Positions 41,554 to 48,932 of a stretch of 64,000 nt of DNA are shown here, one piece after another. The notes beneath the pieces were generated by a model, which was given only the letters and a program-made list of their open reading frames with translations, was not told the origin of the DNA and searched no databases. Position 1 is the first letter of the stretch. Each line of letters starts with the position of its first letter. The position numbers were made by a program, and so were the translations under genes. This stretch comes from Candidatus Planktophila limnetica. Lineage in GTDB: Bacteria; Actinomycetota; Actinomycetes; Nanopelagicales; Nanopelagicaceae. The stretch lies in NCBI RefSeq assembly GCF_002288365.1, contig NZ_CP016782.1:992001-1056000 (forward strand), read 5' to 3'.

Positions 41554-43343
<1,790 letters not shown>

Positions 43344-43391
43344 TTACTTGGCCCCGCCACGGCAGCGAAGGAGGAGGCTGCGATGTGTCAT
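43344..43391 (-). CDS. leuL: Leucine leader peptide (LeuL), 15 aa
   Basis: The frame from ATG 43391 to TAA 43344 reads MTHRSLLLRCRGGAK, with three consecutive leucine codons (CTC CTC CTT, 43376-43368). It has no visible ribosome binding site, but a -10-like TACCAT at 43403-43398 ends six bases before the ATG, with TTGCTT (43427-43422) 18 bases further up as a -35. This gives a leaderless start. Leucine shortage would stall the ribosome at the leucine codons and change pairing in the following leader. Confidence 0.8.
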   Translation of the reverse strand: MTHRSLLLRCRGGAK

Positions 43392-43397
43392 GTGTAA

Positions 43398-43427
43398 ATG
43401 GTAACCCCACCGCGTGATTTCAAGCAA
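43398..43427 (-). promoter_or_regulatory. Promoter of leuL-leuA
   Basis: TTGCTT (43427-43422) and TACCAT (43403-43398) on the minus strand are separated by 18 bases. Transcription would begin at or next to the leader-peptide ATG at 43391. The promoter lies in the spacer shared with the divergent DinB-like gene at 43450. Confidence 0.55.
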
Positions 43428-43449
43428 GTAAAGTTCTAAACTCACGCGT

Positions 43450-43905
43450 ATGGCCAACTTCGAAACGCAACTAATTGCCCTTATAGATTCTGCCAAAGAA
43501 ATTTGTGACGTCGCAGAAAAATCAGGACGTGGTGATCAATTCAATGGTTCTGATTGGACCCCTGCAATTATTTTGGGACACCTAGTCGATGTTGATAAGC
43601 AAGTATGGATGGCTCGTTTTGATTTGATGCGGCAAGCACAGATATCTGGAGCACCAATCCCGCGATTGCAATGGTGGGAACCAGATGCAGTTGTGACTGC
43701 AGAAAAATACTCAACACAGAGCTTTGCAGAGGCGCGTACTAAATTGCTAGCAAGCAGAGAAAATATGGTTTCTTACTTAAAAAACCTCAGCCTTCAAGAG
43801 CGCGCTGCTGCTGCGCAACACCGCACCTTTGGTTCGATCACAATTGAATCAATGCTCCAAGTGCTTTTAGATCACGATAAAGAGCATCAAGCATCTCTTT
43901 TGTAA
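43450..43905 (+). CDS. DinB-like superfamily protein
   Basis: The 151-residue product reads as a four-helix DinB/YfiT-like fold: WTPAIILGHLVDVDKQVWMARF (about residues 36-57) has the first metal-type histidine, and LLDHDKEHQASLL at the C-terminus carries the paired histidines (DHxxxH). This gives the three-His set common in DinB_2 proteins such as thiol-dependent hydrolases or transferases. The substrate is unknown. It has its own divergent promoter region facing leuL and no operon partner downstream. Confidence 0.75.
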   Translation: MANFETQLIALIDSAKEICDVAEKSGRGDQFNGSDWTPAIILGHLVDVDKQVWMARFDLMRQAQISGAPIPRLQWWEPDAVVTAEKYSTQSFAEARTKLLASRENMVSYLKNLSLQERAAAAQHRTFGSITIESMLQVLLDHDKEHQASLL

Positions 43906-44065
43906 CTCTGAGTAACTTTCAAATGTGCAATACTTCTGCAATCTTCTGATTGGCACTAAACAGGGCATGCCTCACTTCGCGTGTGGGATGTCCTGTTTTA
44001 TTTATCCACAGTATTTTTCTTTTAATTTTTTCGGCCCTGGCACTTAGAGACCATTCCCTCACGAT

Positions 44066-44139
44066 GTTGATGTGGTGTAACGGATAGCACATCCGTTTTT
44101 GCCAATCAGAAGGTGCGGGTTCGCATCCCGTCATCAGCT
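44066..44139 (+). ncRNA. tRNA-like element with defective anticodon arm (tRNA-Gln-like; pseudo-tRNA or structured RNA)
   Basis: The ends pair like a tRNA: GTTGATG (44066-44072) with CATCAGC (44132-44138). The D-arm GTGT / GCAC (44075-44090) is that of actinobacterial tRNA-Gln, and a T-arm GCGGG-TTCGCAT-CCCGT (44115-44131) follows. But the expected anticodon stem TCCGT / AATCA does not pair, the central region is one base too long, and T-loop position 58 is C instead of the near-universal A. Instead ACGGAT (44080-44085) can pair with ATCCGT (44091-44096), followed by four T residues, like a small terminator. It is not a normal tRNA. A strong terminator at 44201 would end its transcript. Confidence 0.5.
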
Positions 44140-44164
44140 TAGTAGTCTCACAATTGCATTCTGG

Positions 44165-44184
44165 TTTTTGGCAAGAACCAAAAA
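44165..44184 (+). other. Hairpin downstream of the tRNA-like element
   Basis: TTTTTGG (44165-44171) pairs with CCAAAAA (44178-44184) across a six-base loop. It lies between the tRNA-like element and the terminator, in a stretch with no plausible gene (43906-44236, 331 bases). It could be a second structural part of a short RNA of roughly 170-190 bases. No function is evident. Confidence 0.4.
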
Positions 44185-44200
44185 GTTATGCAAAATGAGC

Positions 44201-44231
44201 AAGGGCCTTGAGGAAACTCAGGGCCCTTTTT
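44201..44231 (+). terminator. Strong Rho-independent terminator, plus strand
   Basis: A 12-pair stem, AAGGGCCTTGAG (44201-44212) with CTCAGGGCCCTT (44217-44228), one G-T pair, closes on a GAAA tetraloop and runs into further T residues. It ends the transcript that includes the tRNA-like element. The reverse strand has a weaker T-run, so it may partly serve the end of the heliorhodopsin gene as well. Confidence 0.9.
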
Positions 44232-44236
44232 AATGC

Positions 44237-45001
44237 CTACGTAGGAATAAGGGTGTTGGCAAAGATTTGCCATGCAAGTGCTGATTTAGCAATGAGTGAG
44301 AGCGTGATGTAGGTGCGCTCTCCACGCATGTAATCAGACCACTTACCAACTTTTTTATACTGCAAAAATTGCACGAGTGCGAATGAGTTAAAGAACAAGA
44401 AAATTGTAAGAACAATGACATAGACAAATGCAGGCGCCTTCGCATCACTTGGGCCACCGATTGCAAATACGTGAAAGAGCAGTGCAATCCAAGGAACGAT
44501 TCCCGTAATGCAACCAAAGATGAATGGAAGCCATCCGCCGTTGCCTGGTTGCTCGTATTTCTCTTGAAGCCATCCGAATAAAATCATTGACGCGTTAACG
44601 CCAAAGATTGAGATGATCGCTGAAATTTCTGAGACACCAGTTACTTGTGCAATCAAAACAATCATCACTGATGAGCTGATGGAGTACTCAACCCAACGGA
44701 AGTAATTGCGCTTTTGTGCAAGACCGGCTGAATATCGTGGAAAGAACTTTGGGCTAGCAACAATGAAGTGAGCAAGTGCTGAAAGGCCTAAGAAGATACC
44801 GACAGTTAAGCCAATAGGAGTGTCAAAGAGAACAACAGGTTCGGCATAGGTTGATCCTGGAGGACCAGACATATATTTTGCTGTGATTGGTAATGAAAAA
44901 TCACTGCTGAGTGCAAGGACTGCAATCATCTGCAGTAGGTGGAAAATTCCGGCGATGATGTTTGTGCGACGTAAACCTGCTGATGTGATCTCTTTGCTCA
45001 T
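44237..45001 (-). CDS. Heliorhodopsin
   Basis: This 254-residue, seven-helix retinal protein matches heliorhodopsin 48C12 along its length as I recall that sequence. The retinal-binding lysine is K239 in SLIAKSALAWQIF of helix 7 (K241 in 48C12). The counterion is E105 in FRWVEYSISSSVMIVLIAQ (E107 in 48C12). The two conserved histidines near the Schiff-base cavity are H21 and H78 (23 and 80 in 48C12). The block ASMILFGWLQEKYEQP is diagnostic. Heliorhodopsins face inside-out relative to type 1 rhodopsins and do not pump protons. It begins 25 bases after glnA on the same strand. A study of an actinobacterial heliorhodopsin reported binding to glutamine synthetase, which fits this pairing. Confidence 0.97.
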   Translation of the reverse strand: MSKEITSAGLRRTNIIAGIFHLLQMIAVLALSSDFSLPITAKYMSGPPGSTYAEPVVLFDTPIGLTVGIFLGLSALAHFIVASPKFFPRYSAGLAQKRNYFRWVEYSISSSVMIVLIAQVTGVSEISAIISIFGVNASMILFGWLQEKYEQPGNGGWLPFIFGCITGIVPWIALLFHVFAIGGPSDAKAPAFVYVIVLTIFLFFNSFALVQFLQYKKVGKWSDYMRGERTYITLSLIAKSALAWQIFANTLIPT

Positions 45002-45026
45002 GGGGGCAAATTTATCCCACCAACTG

Positions 45027-46337
45027 CTAAAGAACTGGGATATACCTATCTAACTCAAAGGCACTTACCTGGCGGCGATACTCCTGCCACTCAGCACGCT
45101 TATTTCGAAGCACATATTCAAATACATGCGCGCCTAGCGTTTCGCGAACCAGCTCGCTCTTTTCCATGGCAGAAATTGCTTCATCCAAGTTTGTTGGCAG
45201 GGTCTGCAAATCATTAGATGCAGAAAGTTCGTACTTATTTTCTATTCCCTTTAAGCCAGCAGCAATCATGACGGCGTATGCAAGGTATGGATTACACGCA
45301 GAATCTGGTGATCTAAATTCAATGCGTGTGGAGTTTTCTTTTCCTGGTTTATACATCGGCAAACGCACGAGTGCGCCGCGATCACTTGGTCCCCAGTTAA
45401 CTAGTGCTGGTGCTTCTCCGCCACCATGTAGCCGTTTGTATGAATTAACCCATTGATTTGTCACAGCAGTAATTTCAGCGGCGTGAGTCAAGATGCCTGC
45501 AATAAATGAGCGACCAATTTTGGATAAATTAAACTCAGCCTTTGGATCATAAAAAGCGTTCTCTTCGCCTTTAAATAATGAGACGTGCGTGTGCATTCCA
45601 CTGCCCGGATGATCTGTAAATGGCTTTGGCATAAAGGATGCGTAGAAGCCTTGATCTAGGGCAACTTCTTTAATCACGTGACGAAATGTCATGATGTTAT
45701 CTGCAGTGCTTAACGCATCAGCATCGCGCAAATCAATTTCTTGTTGTCCTGGTCCACCTTCGTGGTGGCTAAATTCAACAGATATTCCCATTGCTTCCAG
45801 CAAGGTAATTGCTTGGCGTCTAAAGTCATGGCCAACAACAGATGGGGTGTGATCGAAATATCCGCCTTGATCAACTGGCACTGGTACTTCGCCTTTTTCA
45901 GGACGTGCTTTGAATAAGAAGAATTCAATTTCTGGATGGGTGTAACAGGTGTAACCCATCTGTGCTGCTTTATTGAGTGTGCGACGTAGAACATTTCGTG
46001 GGTCTGCAGGAGATGGAGAACCATCTGGCATCGTGATGTCACAGAACATGCGCGCAGCGCCCGGGGCTTCTGTACGCCATGGCAAGATTGAAAATGTTGC
46101 AGGATCTGGCTTTGCCAACATATCTGATTCAGTAACACGAGCAAATCCTTCGATAGCAGAACCATCAAAGCCAATGCCTTCTGCAAATGCATTTTCTAAT
46201 TCAGCAGGTGCGATTGCAACAGATTTTAGAAAGCCCAAAACATCGGTAAACCACAAACGCACAAATCGGATATTGCGTTCTTCAAGAGTGCGACTAACAA
46301 ACTCTTGCTGCTTGGACATTTCTTGTTCTGGGGCCAT
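45027..46337 (-). CDS. glnA: Glutamine synthetase, GlnA2-like (type I without adenylylation site)
   Basis: This 436-residue enzyme belongs to the GS-I family: NIRFVRLWFTDVLGFLKSVAI (about residues 18-38), GFDGSAIEGFARVTESDM (about 53-70), the metal/substrate block with PEIEFFLF and HHEGGPGQQEIDL (about 192-204), FMPKPFTDHPGSGMHTHVSLF and NSYKRLHGGGEAP. Where adenylylated enzymes have NLYDLP, this one has LQTLPTNLDEAI without the tyrosine, so adenylylation control is unlikely. ATG 46337 is used; MSKQQEF at 46319 is an alternative start. A GlnR-like box lies just upstream. It is followed by the heliorhodopsin gene. Related GlnA2-4 proteins can use other amines, so the activity should be tested. 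Confidence 0.92.
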   Translation of the reverse strand: MAPEQEMSKQQEFVSRTLEERNIRFVRLWFTDVLGFLKSVAIAPAELENAFAEGIGFDGSAIEGFARVTESDMLAKPDPATFSILPWRTEAPGAARMFCDITMPDGSPSPADPRNVLRRTLNKAAQMGYTCYTHPEIEFFLFKARPEKGEVPVPVDQGGYFDHTPSVVGHDFRRQAITLLEAMGISVEFSHHEGGPGQQEIDLRDADALSTADNIMTFRHVIKEVALDQGFYASFMPKPFTDHPGSGMHTHVSLFKGEENAFYDPKAEFNLSKIGRSFIAGILTHAAEITAVTNQWVNSYKRLHGGGEAPALVNWGPSDRGALVRLPMYKPGKENSTRIEFRSPDSACNPYLAYAVMIAAGLKGIENKYELSASNDLQTLPTNLDEAISAMEKSELVRETLGAHVFEYVLRNKRAEWQEYRRQVSAFELDRYIPVL

Positions 46338-46343
46338 GGCCAG

Positions 46344-46375
46344 ATACTGCCAAAGCCGCGTTACGGCTGTGTTAC
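46344..46375 (-). promoter_or_regulatory. GlnR-like box and promoter of glnA-heliorhodopsin
   Basis: On the minus strand GTAAC-ACAGCC-GTAAC (46375-46360) matches the actinobacterial GlnR pattern GTnAC-N6-GnAAC, and the AC-N9-AC core. A weak -10-like CAGTAT (46349-46344) ends six bases before ATG 46337, so a leaderless nitrogen-controlled transcript is possible. The box lies in the 43-base gap behind nadE. Confidence 0.6.
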
Positions 46376-46380
46376 GAAAA

Positions 46381-48042
46381 TTAAGCTTCGCTCCAGCGTG
46401 AAGTCATGGGCAAGCGGCGATCTTTACCGAAGGCACGGACTGAAACCTTGGTGCCAGGTGGATATTGGCGACGTTTGTATTCAGCCTTATCCACCATTGC
46501 AATAACGCGCATTACAAGTGCGCTATCAAAACCGGCGGCAATTAGCGCAGCCGATCCTTGATCACCATCGACGTAACGAGTGAGTAGTTGATCTAATAAC
46601 TCATACTCAGGCAATGAATCAGAGTCTTTTTGATCAGGGCGTAATTCGGCGCTCGGTTCTTTTTCAATCGAGCGCTGCGGAATTGGTGCAACTTCGCCGC
46701 GAGCAGTGGCTTGAGCATTACGCCATGTGGCCAGTGCCCAGACATCAGTTTTATAAATATCTTTAATAGGTGCAAAGCCGCCGACGGCGTCGCCATACAA
46801 AGTGGAGTATCCGACTGCGAGCTCTGATTTATTTCCTGTAGCAAGTACAAGGTGGCCTTCTTGATTTGAAATCCCCATCAGCGTCGTTCCGCGCACGCGG
46901 GCCTGAATGTTTTCAGCAGCCACTGCTTTTAGGGTGATGGATTGCATAAAGGATTGCACCATTGGCTCTATCTCAACGTTTCTAAAGTGAATGCCGGTAT
47001 TGGCTGCAAATGCTGTCGCATCTTCAACTGAGTGATCGGAAGAATACTTACTCGGCATTGCAACACCATTGACGCACTTGGCGCCCAATGCATCAACTGC
47101 AATTGCTGCAACCAGGGCTGAATCAATTCCACCAGATAGGCCAACGACTACGGATCTAAATTTGTTTTTGGCGACATAGTCGCGAAGACCCATGACAAGT
47201 GCGTTCCAGATTTCTTCGTTATCACTCATCCGCGCAGCAACTGCTGGTGGCAGAGAATCAGATGCCTCAACGCCACTTTCTGAAATCACAACATCGGGTG
47301 TGGATGTCTGCGTGGCAGAATCAATATCGACTACCAATAGTTGGTCTTGAAATTGTGCGGCTCTAGAAATAACTACGCCTCTTGCATCAACGACAATGGT
47401 GTCGCCATCGAATACCAAATCATCTTGGCCGCCGGTCATATTCACATATGCCAAAGGCGCACCTATTTCCTTGGCACGCTTTTGAACAAGGGCTAATCGC
47501 ACATCATCTTTATTGCGTTCATACGGAGAACCATTTGGAACAAGGACTAGACCAGGTTTTCTGGCAGCAAGATCTGCCAATGAGTGCCAGATATCTTCAC
47601 AGATTGCGATACCTATATCTACGCCTTTGACTCGAATAACTAGCGTTGAATCCCCTGGCACAAAGTTTCGGAACTCATCAAAGACGCCATAGTTTGGCAA
47701 GTGACGCTTTGTATAAGTAGCTGCGATTTTTGAGCCGTAGATGATGGCCACGTTATTTTGTGGCGCCCCTGTTGTTGATTCATCGAGATAGCCCACCACT
47801 GAGACGATCGATGGATTTAGAGAAGTAACTAGTTGAGCCAGCGCTTTTTTGCTTGCACTTCTAAATGATGCGCGCATTGCAAGGTCTTCAACGGGATAGC
47901 CAGTTAAAACCATCTCTGGAAAAACAATGACATCGGCGGCAGCTTTTTTTGCCTGATCTGTGTATTCGCTTATGAGCGCAGCATTGCCTTCTAGATCACC
48001 AACTGTTGGGTTGATCTGTGCCAGTGCTACGCGCAACTTCAT
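46381..48042 (-). CDS. nadE: Glutamine-dependent NAD+ synthetase
   Basis: This 553-residue two-domain enzyme makes NAD from deamido-NAD with glutamine as nitrogen donor. The N-terminal nitrilase-type glutaminase has its Glu-Lys-Cys triad in VFPEMVLTGYP (about residue 43), KRHLPNYGVFDEF (about 115) and GIAICEDIWH (about 150). The C-terminal synthetase has the PP-loop GLSGGIDSALVAAIA (about residue 300) and GNKSELAVGYSTLYGDAVGG. It uses the product of the glnA gene next door. The protein is the shorter form rather than the roughly 680-residue type of mycobacteria. Confidence 0.95.
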   Translation of the reverse strand: MKLRVALAQINPTVGDLEGNAALISEYTDQAKKAAADVIVFPEMVLTGYPVEDLAMRASFRSASKKALAQLVTSLNPSIVSVVGYLDESTTGAPQNNVAIIYGSKIAATYTKRHLPNYGVFDEFRNFVPGDSTLVIRVKGVDIGIAICEDIWHSLADLAARKPGLVLVPNGSPYERNKDDVRLALVQKRAKEIGAPLAYVNMTGGQDDLVFDGDTIVVDARGVVISRAAQFQDQLLVVDIDSATQTSTPDVVISESGVEASDSLPPAVAARMSDNEEIWNALVMGLRDYVAKNKFRSVVVGLSGGIDSALVAAIAVDALGAKCVNGVAMPSKYSSDHSVEDATAFAANTGIHFRNVEIEPMVQSFMQSITLKAVAAENIQARVRGTTLMGISNQEGHLVLATGNKSELAVGYSTLYGDAVGGFAPIKDIYKTDVWALATWRNAQATARGEVAPIPQRSIEKEPSAELRPDQKDSDSLPEYELLDQLLTRYVDGDQGSAALIAAGFDSALVMRVIAMVDKAEYKRRQYPPGTKVSVRAFGKDRRLPMTSRWSEA

Positions 48043-48119
48043 ACGTTAAGCCTACTTCTAGTACCCTTGGGGATGTACCCAGGGACTTCACTTGAAGCCT
48101 TGAGGCTGGAGGTCTTTAC

Positions 48120-48932
48120 ATGTCATCCCTATATGGCGGAGCTACGCATCGTCGCGTAACCATTGCCGATTTAGCCGATGCTAAAGCGCGCGGTGAAAAA
48201 TGGCCGATGCTCACATCCTATGAAGAGATGACCGCATCCATCTTCGATGAAGCCGGTATCCCTGTTTTATTAGTGGGTGATAGCGCTGGCAATAATTTCT
48301 TAGGTTTAGAAAACACAATCCCTGTGACAGTCGATGAAATGATTCCCTTAGTTCGAGCAGTTGTTCGCGGATCAGAGCGAGCAATGGTTGTTGCTGATTT
48401 GCCATTTGGGTCCTATGAACAATCCCCCGAACAAGCACTTGCCACATCGACTCGATTCTTTAAAGAATCTGGTGCGATGGCGGTCAAGATTGAAGGGGCG
48501 CGAATTTCAACTGTTGAAAAATTAGTTGCCACCGGAATTCCGGTGATGGGCCACCTTGGTTTTACCCCACAATCTCTTCACCAATTAAGTGGATATAAAG
48601 TCCAGGGCAGAACCGATGGTGATTCGATTTTTGAAGCAGCCCTCGCCCTTGAAAAGGCTGGAGTCTTTGCAATCGTCCTTGAATTAGTCCCAGCCGAATT
48701 AGCGGCTCGAATTACTAAGGCTTTGGCTATTCCAACTGTTGGAATCGGAGCCGGCGTTGATTGCGATTCACAAGTTTTGGTCTGGACAGATTTGATGGGC
48801 ATAACAAAGAACCCACCTAAGTTGGCTAAGGCTTATCGCAATCTGCGCACCGAAATGCTCGATGCTACAAAGGAGTGGGCGGTGGATGTGGCGGGATCAC
48901 GTTTTCCTGGCGCCGAACAATCCTTTAAGTAA
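48120..48932 (+). CDS. panB: 3-methyl-2-oxobutanoate hydroxymethyltransferase (ketopantoate hydroxymethyltransferase)
   Basis: PanB adds a hydroxymethyl group to 2-oxoisovalerate on the way to pantothenate and CoA. The 270-residue TIM barrel has LTSYEEMTASIFDEAGIPVLLVGDSAGNNFLG (about residues 32-63, metal-binding Asp in GDS), AVKIEGA, the GHLGFTPQSLHQLSGYKVQGR block (about 143-163) and the C-terminal PTVGIGAGVDCDSQVLVWTDLMG. A good GGAGG ribosome binding site precedes the ATG. It starts a plus-strand unit with the MFS gene nine bases later. panC/panD are not in the window. Confidence 0.95.
   Translation: MSSLYGGATHRRVTIADLADAKARGEKWPMLTSYEEMTASIFDEAGIPVLLVGDSAGNNFLGLENTIPVTVDEMIPLVRAVVRGSERAMVVADLPFGSYEQSPEQALATSTRFFKESGAMAVKIEGARISTVEKLVATGIPVMGHLGFTPQSLHQLSGYKVQGRTDGDSIFEAALALEKAGVFAIVLELVPAELAARITKALAIPTVGIGAGVDCDSQVLVWTDLMGITKNPPKLAKAYRNLRTEMLDATKEWAVDVAGSRFPGAEQSFK

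Follow-up and report, generated by a model that had tools for sequence, protein, structure and literature searches.

The heliorhodopsin (HeR) gene of Candidatus Planktophila limnetica lies directly behind a gene of the glutamine synthetase (GS) family, whose product is, judging from its sequence, close to certainly an orthologue of actinobacterial GlnA2 and not a canonical GS. The HeR gene is preceded by a conserved -10-like element of its own, and its linkage to glnA2 was found in a single genus. Taken as a whole, the explanation considered best here, with a likelihood somewhat short of even, is that HeR activates a GlnA2 polyamine ligase and is expressed from its own promoter with additional read-through. 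The adjacency of HeR and GS, their joint transcripts, their binding and the mild activation have already been published (PMC9529153; PMC8612252); the GlnA2 identity, the restriction of the linkage found to one genus, the separate -10-like element of HeR and the lack of specificity of K216 and K220 are new.

The window, i.e., the whole stretch of 64,000 nucleotides that was analyzed (contig NZ_CP016782.1, positions 992,001 to 1,056,000 of the forward strand), belongs to a closed genome of 1,328,793 bases with one HeR match and one type-1 rhodopsin match; the G+C content was about 46%. The initial annotation had placed the HeR gene 25 bases behind a glnA-like gene on the same strand, with nadE upstream; the ORF coordinates and family matches confirmed this arrangement (spacer 45002-45026), with all three genes on one strand. 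In Pfam searches the GS-family protein matched PF00120 and PF03951, and the nadE product consisted of CN_hydrolase and NAD_synthase domains. The tRNA was the sole Rfam match over 42800-48300, and the hairpin listed below was absent from the pattern-scan matches. The features of the locus, by position in the window, are:

41554-43269, minus strand: leuA (putative name), an ORF found downstream of glnA2 or HeR in relatives; conserved flank marker
44066-44139, plus strand: tRNA-Ala (TGC), downstream of HeR on the opposite strand, with the hairpin between
44201-44230, no strand assigned: G+C-rich hairpin between HeR and tRNA-Ala, with a T run on the plus side, from folding of the stretch; terminator-like
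44237-45001, minus strand: HeR gene, 254 aa (PF18761, 330 bits, cut-off 26.7; NF038020, 345.8 bits, cut-off 100)
45009-45014, minus strand: TANNNT element (TAAATT) ending 7 nt before the HeR ATG, with a counterpart in 35 of 35 linked HeRs; likely leaderless -10 element
45027-46337, minus strand: GS-family gene, 436 aa, GlnA2 orthologue by tree, class survey, residues and a score below the TIGR00653 cut-off
46381-48042, minus strand: nadE, glutamine-dependent NAD+ synthase, first gene of the unit (NF010588, 670.3 bits, cut-off 479)
48049-48054, minus strand: TANNNT element (TAGGCT) before the nadE start, seen in the sequence and in 34 of 36 nadE orthologues; likely promoter of the nadE-glnA2 unit
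48120-48932, plus strand: panB (TIGR00222, 277.8 bits, cut-off 207.55), at the same place in relatives; conserved flank marker

Three GS-family genes were found in the source genome, namely a canonical GlnA, an amine-ligase-like gene and the gene in the window. The window protein fell narrowly under the GlnA cut-off of TIGR00653 (426.4 vs. 429.15 bits), and the canonical GlnA encoded elsewhere scored 655.9 bits. In a class-wide draw of 88 genomes, six of them from the window's genus, a GlnA2 orthologue was detected at E ≤ 3.5e-182 in 86; the exceptions, G254 and G317, gave only a match at 6e-45 and a fragment, and the next GS-family members followed at about 1e-60 or weaker. A quick tree of 64 rows, for which the program warned of long branches between families, placed the window gene inside a 40-row GlnA2 clade (SH-aLRT 99) that includes named sequences from Streptomyces, Actinacidiphila, Nonomuraea and Microtetraspora; GlnA1 and the other paralogues lay outside this clade. 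The neighborhood was partly conserved as well, with nadE near GlnA2 in 15 of 20 class loci (one a weak match of 27% identity) and panB in 11 of 20. The partner of HeR had been annotated as a GS, an identification that is replaced here by GlnA2, the canonical GlnA being a separate gene elsewhere in the genome.

At positions 50, 53, 179, 264, 327 and 397, all eight aligned GlnA1 rows carried D, S, Y, N, E and Y. At the sites of GlnA1 Asn264, Ser53 and Tyr397 the window enzyme has Pro, Ala and a gap. Among 68 GlnA2 rows, the Asn264 site was occupied by Pro in 61 and Ala in 7 (Asn in 8/8 GlnA1 rows), and the Ser53 site by Ala in 63 and Ser in 5, whereas D50, Y179 and E327, which are tied to ammonium in true GSs, were kept in 68/68, the window gene included. 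The nearest solved structures were entries named glutamine synthetase (421 bits), with glutamate-methylamine ligase at 226.6 bits and 4hpp at 91.3; the four best PDB alignments, all named glutamine synthetase and three of them near-identical, have Asn at the Asn264 site. The absence of the adenylylation tyrosine, which had been noted for this enzyme, is borne out by the alignment gap, but the tyrosine was missing from every one of the 68 GlnA2 rows. GlnE gave no match in the source genome in a search that matched 3 of 14 controls, C. glutamicum included. The missing tyrosine therefore says little, and loss of adenylylation was rejected as a meaningful trait. The canonical GlnA (L002 1489-2919) retains the adenylylation-site tyrosine motif; the genome has a PII gene, and no GlnE was found in it.

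The closest published case is Actinobacteria bacterium IMCC26103, with the gene order nadE-GS-HeR (PMC9529153). AbHeR was reported to bind AbGS with a Kd of 6 μM in vesicles and 100 μM in detergent, binding being lost in the K216Q variant, and to activate AbGS mildly and more so in light, where kcat/Km rose 2.24-fold. AbGS was a poor GS, with a Km for Glu of 27 mM and a kcat/Km of 5.4 vs. 900-28,000 M-1 s-1, and partially rescued an E. coli glnA mutant; ammonium was the sole amine tried in the assays that the paper describes. Its authors noted the Pro and allowed for AbGS possibly catalyzing another reaction, and the main text nowhere mentions polyamine, putrescine or GlnA2. Its figure legends add four to the GS group, IMCC25003 and three from Planktophila. 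Regulation of a GS by a bound HeR, on which the initial annotation drew, is hence in print for close relatives (PMC9529153).

As published, HeR would up-regulate a low-activity GS in light and so boost ammonium assimilation, with nadE, GS and HeR forming one operon under one promoter. This account is credible though unlikely. The two Kd values, the light effect and the mutant rescue (PMC9529153) argue for it, as do the retained D50, Y179 and E327, the names of the nearest PDB entries, and strand-specific transcripts, one class of which joins HeR, GS and NAD+ synthetase (PMC8612252). It is weakened by the identity of the partner as a GlnA2 orthologue with the Asn264→Pro change, by very low activity with ammonium (PMC9529153), by the canonical GlnA also encoded in the genome, and by the second conserved -10-like element directly before HeR.

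By analogy with characterized enzymes, the substrate of the window GlnA2 may instead be a polyamine, a possibility to which we give an even chance at best. This reading is favored by the membership in the GlnA2 clade, the Asn264 change, the separate canonical GlnA, the poor kinetics of AbGS (PMC9529153) and the activity of GlnA2 from S. coelicolor (PMC8998196), and also by the presence of Pot-like and aminobutyraldehyde dehydrogenase genes. The source genome contained two PotA-type matches over the cut-off, one of them beside an aminobutyraldehyde dehydrogenase (NF010000, 701.4 vs. 615 bits) in a group with a PotB-like permease below the cut-off and a DAO-family FAD oxidase. A second group comprised another aminobutyraldehyde dehydrogenase (636.8 vs. 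615 bits), a PotA-like ATPase just below the cut-off and a PotD-like protein far below it (148.3 vs. 582). Counting against the polyamine reading are again the kept D50, Y179 and E327, the nearest PDB entries being named GS, and the partial rescue of the E. coli glnA mutant by AbGS (PMC9529153). The presence of GlnA2 in 205 of the order's 251 genomes and in 16/16 genera would fit a housekeeping role and thus also argues against it, and any work on amines could fall to the second amine-ligase-like gene, which has permease and aldehyde dehydrogenase genes beside it.

That third GS-family gene was located at about 497445-503324 of the source contig (L099 2446-8325), in a group with an amino acid permease, an aldehyde dehydrogenase and an SDR and near a class-I glutamine amidotransferase-like gene. 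The group likely represents a gamma-glutamyl-amine pathway, perhaps of the ethanolamine type.

An HeR match was present in 157 of the 251 genomes of the order. Among at least 100 genomes with both genes, HeR and glnA2 were linked in 38, on the same contig but apart in 6, and on different contigs in 56; locus reading added G199, G136, G148, G169, G192 and G216 to the linked genomes, with gaps of 397 and 190 nt between HeR and a shortened glnA2 ORF in G192 and G216. In total, linkage was found in at least 44 of the 83 HeR-bearing genomes of the window's genus and in none of the 37 HeR loci read from other genera. The recurrence expected from a survey of HeR neighbors was thus observed within the genus and was not seen in the loci read beyond it.

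The HeR loci read numbered 104, from 104 of the 157 genomes with a match, and were not a random draw. In 33 of them glnA2 was the nearest upstream co-directional gene, and in 2 more a 119-aa ORF lay between; these were G089 and G093 (L054 5281-5640 and L055 1228-1587), the ORF in L054 being without a Pfam match. The next commonest upstream family occurred 5 times, on the opposite strand, and other co-directional families at most 3 times. The gap between glnA2 and HeR was 24-61 nt in 29 of the 33 loci. These counts bear on a rather improbable alternative, namely adjacency without function, in which a mobile HeR with its own promoter would have come to lie by chance behind glnA2 in one genus, and the published interaction would be weak and unspecific. 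The finding of linkage in one genus only, with HeR elsewhere in the other loci read, is in its favor, and the effects in print are small (PMC9529153). The predominance of glnA2 upstream of HeR and the narrow range of gaps speak against it, as does the loss of binding in the K216Q control (PMC9529153).

Most of the unlinked relatives read had the order nadE-cysK-cysE-glnA2, mostly followed by leuA; in linked genomes the order was nadE-glnA2-HeR, cysK and cysE were missing, and a Gfo/Idh gene preceded leuA in some. Genome G035 had neither cysK-cysE nor a linked HeR, and was the one case of loss in the tree of the block genes, a rarity that also disfavors chance placement. The cysK-cysE pair lies between nadE and glnA2 in unlinked genomes (e.g., L060 3499-4941). 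In 61 genomes of the genus, uncorrected for kinship, CysE exceeded the cut-off in 0 of 19 HeR-linked genomes, 10 of 12 with HeR read elsewhere and 9 of 30 others. In one other genus (L086, L094, L098), an alanine dehydrogenase gene and a hexapeptide-sized ORF precede glnA2 in place of nadE-cysK-cysE. G035 and G050 (L065, L071) carry a divergent HeR, 43% identical to that of the window, away from glnA2.

The TANNNT motif was read as a leaderless -10 box, an assumption that we take from general knowledge of actinobacterial promoters. It preceded the ATG in all 35 linked HeRs, ending 6 nt (28 loci) or 7 nt (7 loci) upstream, compared with a mean of 5.8 and a maximum of 11 in shuffles; among unlinked HeRs it was found 4-9 nt before the ATG in 46 of 63 (shuffles: mean 8.2, maximum 16). 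Shine-Dalgarno-like cores were rare before HeR (2/35 linked, 4/63 unlinked). Even twenty HeR spacers with a mutual similarity below 75% all had A at -11 and T at -7. Among control genes the motif preceded nadE in 34 of 36, glnA2 in 2 of 41, leuA in 4 of 40 and cysK in 0 of 16, and 36 of the 40 leuA genes had a Shine-Dalgarno sequence. Across all genes of the window, TANNNT occurred before 6 of 28 first and 9 of 27 inner genes and did not separate the two classes, for which we suspect wrong longest-ORF starts; a sigma-70 pattern scan gave 4 matches against an average of 8.3 in shuffles. The orthologue comparison, and not the sigma-70 scan, was the informative promoter test.

Since the element stands before all 35 linked HeRs, as it does before nearly all nadE and rarely before glnA2, HeR probably has its own leaderless promoter, and gene order alone is then no proof of one light-controlled operon. 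Its occurrence before linked and unlinked HeRs alike is also what a mobile HeR with its own promoter would show. Read-through into HeR from the nadE promoter is nevertheless likely, given the published transcripts (PMC8612252). On the choice between separate promoters and co-transcription, both kinds of evidence are thus at hand, the conserved -10-like element directly before HeR and the joint transcripts in print.

All the HeR residues listed in the initial annotation (K239, E105, H21 and H78) were present in the window protein. The retinal lysine K239 and the counterion E105 were conserved in 64 of 64 HeRs compared, a set of 28 linked and 36 labelled unlinked, two of which later proved linked. 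A search for retinal synthesis with PF15461 (BCD) found no match in the source genome and none in the controls either. The window HeR has K216, K217, K220, D223, R226 and E228. K220 was found in 64/64 HeRs and K216 in 60/64, with Arg in the other 4; K216, the residue reported as critical for binding, is accordingly no marker of the linked group in these alignments. K217 (28/28 linked vs. 28/36 unlinked rows) may be a weak marker, and R226 was present in 28/28 vs. 31/36. No position cleanly split linked from unlinked HeRs, so that residues specific for GS were rejected as a candidate; the largest difference was at S124 (25/28 vs. 9/36). The lack of specificity of K216 and K220 counts against a coupling of HeR and GlnA2, and their nearly equal conservation in unlinked HeRs would suit adjacency without function. 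Binding may also take place in trans, because GlnA2 is encoded in almost all of these genomes.

A careful tree of 59 HeRs, 30 of them linked and with five divergent rows left out, rejected the linked HeRs as one clade (p-AU 0.000258, log-likelihood difference 89.6), and the 30 linked HeRs required 4 changes of label. Shared descent as the only cause of linkage was rejected on this basis, and HeRs of different lineages therefore stand at this one position, whether captured repeatedly or exchanged there, which again argues against chance placement. In the nadE+glnA2+leuA tree the linked genomes fell in an open polytomy, and one founding event followed by exchange of HeR in place may account for the pattern. 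A more specific version, in which HeR regulates, depending on light, the gamma-glutamylation of polyamines by GlnA2 and not the assimilation of ammonium, and in which HeRs from different lineages, each with a leaderless promoter of its own, were introduced or exchanged at the site behind glnA2 on more than one occasion, appears doubtful in its entirety.

In the explanation that we prefer, the HeR gene would have been placed directly behind glnA2 in the conserved nadE-glnA2 block of this bacterial group. HeR, a presumed non-pumping retinal photoreceptor, would bind the GlnA2 oligomer at the membrane via cytoplasmic loops and mildly raise its activity, more so in light. GlnA2 would probably be a glutamate-amine ligase and not an ammonium-assimilating GS. 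Its physiological substrate would likely be putrescine, cadaverine or a similar short polyamine, and light would accordingly influence the use of polyamine nitrogen, or detoxification; light control in vivo has, in our estimate, at most an even chance. A leaderless promoter in the spacer between glnA2 and HeR would drive HeR, and some transcripts from the nadE promoter would read through into it as well. The light-controlled nitrogen-assimilation module of the initial annotation keeps, in this form, the adjacency in at least 44 genomes and the published binding, light activation and co-transcripts (PMC9529153; PMC8612252), and is altered by the GlnA2 partner, the genus-limited linkage and the separate HeR promoter element. 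Few heliorhodopsins have a function proposed for them, and AbHeR/AbGS is among these. Should the enzyme partner be GlnA2, the amine in the published assay may have been the wrong one, which would explain the poor kinetics; a separate promoter, together with binding lysines mostly common to unlinked HeRs, would change how gene-neighborhood evidence for HeR function is read.

Inverted topology and absence of ion pumping have been reported for HeR homologues. In the open-licence PMC literature, no paper was found combining heliorhodopsin with glnA2 or with leaderless, and none by title on the HeR-GlnA2 pair and polyamine. A known enzyme close to that of the window, S. coelicolor GlnA2 (SCO2241), is reported to be a gamma-glutamylpolyamine synthetase with Asn264→Pro that is no substitute for GS in vivo, although active with excess ammonium (PMC8998196). 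Its Streptomyces relatives fall in the clade of the window enzyme, and both enzymes share the Asn264→Pro change and lack the adenylylation tyrosine; the match rests on other Streptomyces sequences and on PMC8998196. Ser53→Glu and (Table 1) Tyr179→Asp are given there for S. coelicolor GlnA2, unlike the Streptomyces rows aligned here, which have Ala at 53 and Tyr at 179. HeR was absent beside the Streptomyces genes read, and Trp397, present in other GlnA2, aligns with a gap in the Nanopelagicales-type rows.

The window and IMCC26103 share the order nadE-GS-HeR, and AbHeR and the window HeR are alike in K216, K217, K220, D223, R226 and E228 (PMC9529153). Ala55 and Pro238 of AbGS, which starts 6 codons further in, correspond to Ala61 and Pro244 of the window enzyme. 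Differences were Q151 in the window HeR vs. E151 in AbHeR, and the downstream region, where a Gfo/Idh/MocA oxidoreductase gene follows HeR in IMCC26103, whereas a tRNA, a DinB-like gene and then leuA follow it in the window. In PMC9529153 the enzyme is regarded as a GS and the genes are taken to form a single operon, in contrast to the GlnA2 identity and the separate -10-like element of HeR described here. GS is among ten HeR neighbor groups in PMC11109279, where OcHeR is described as modulating the ABC transporter OmrDE; likened by description and not by sequence comparison, that HeR has a different partner from the one in the window, and it too lies beside the protein that it is said to modulate, with positive residues invoked.
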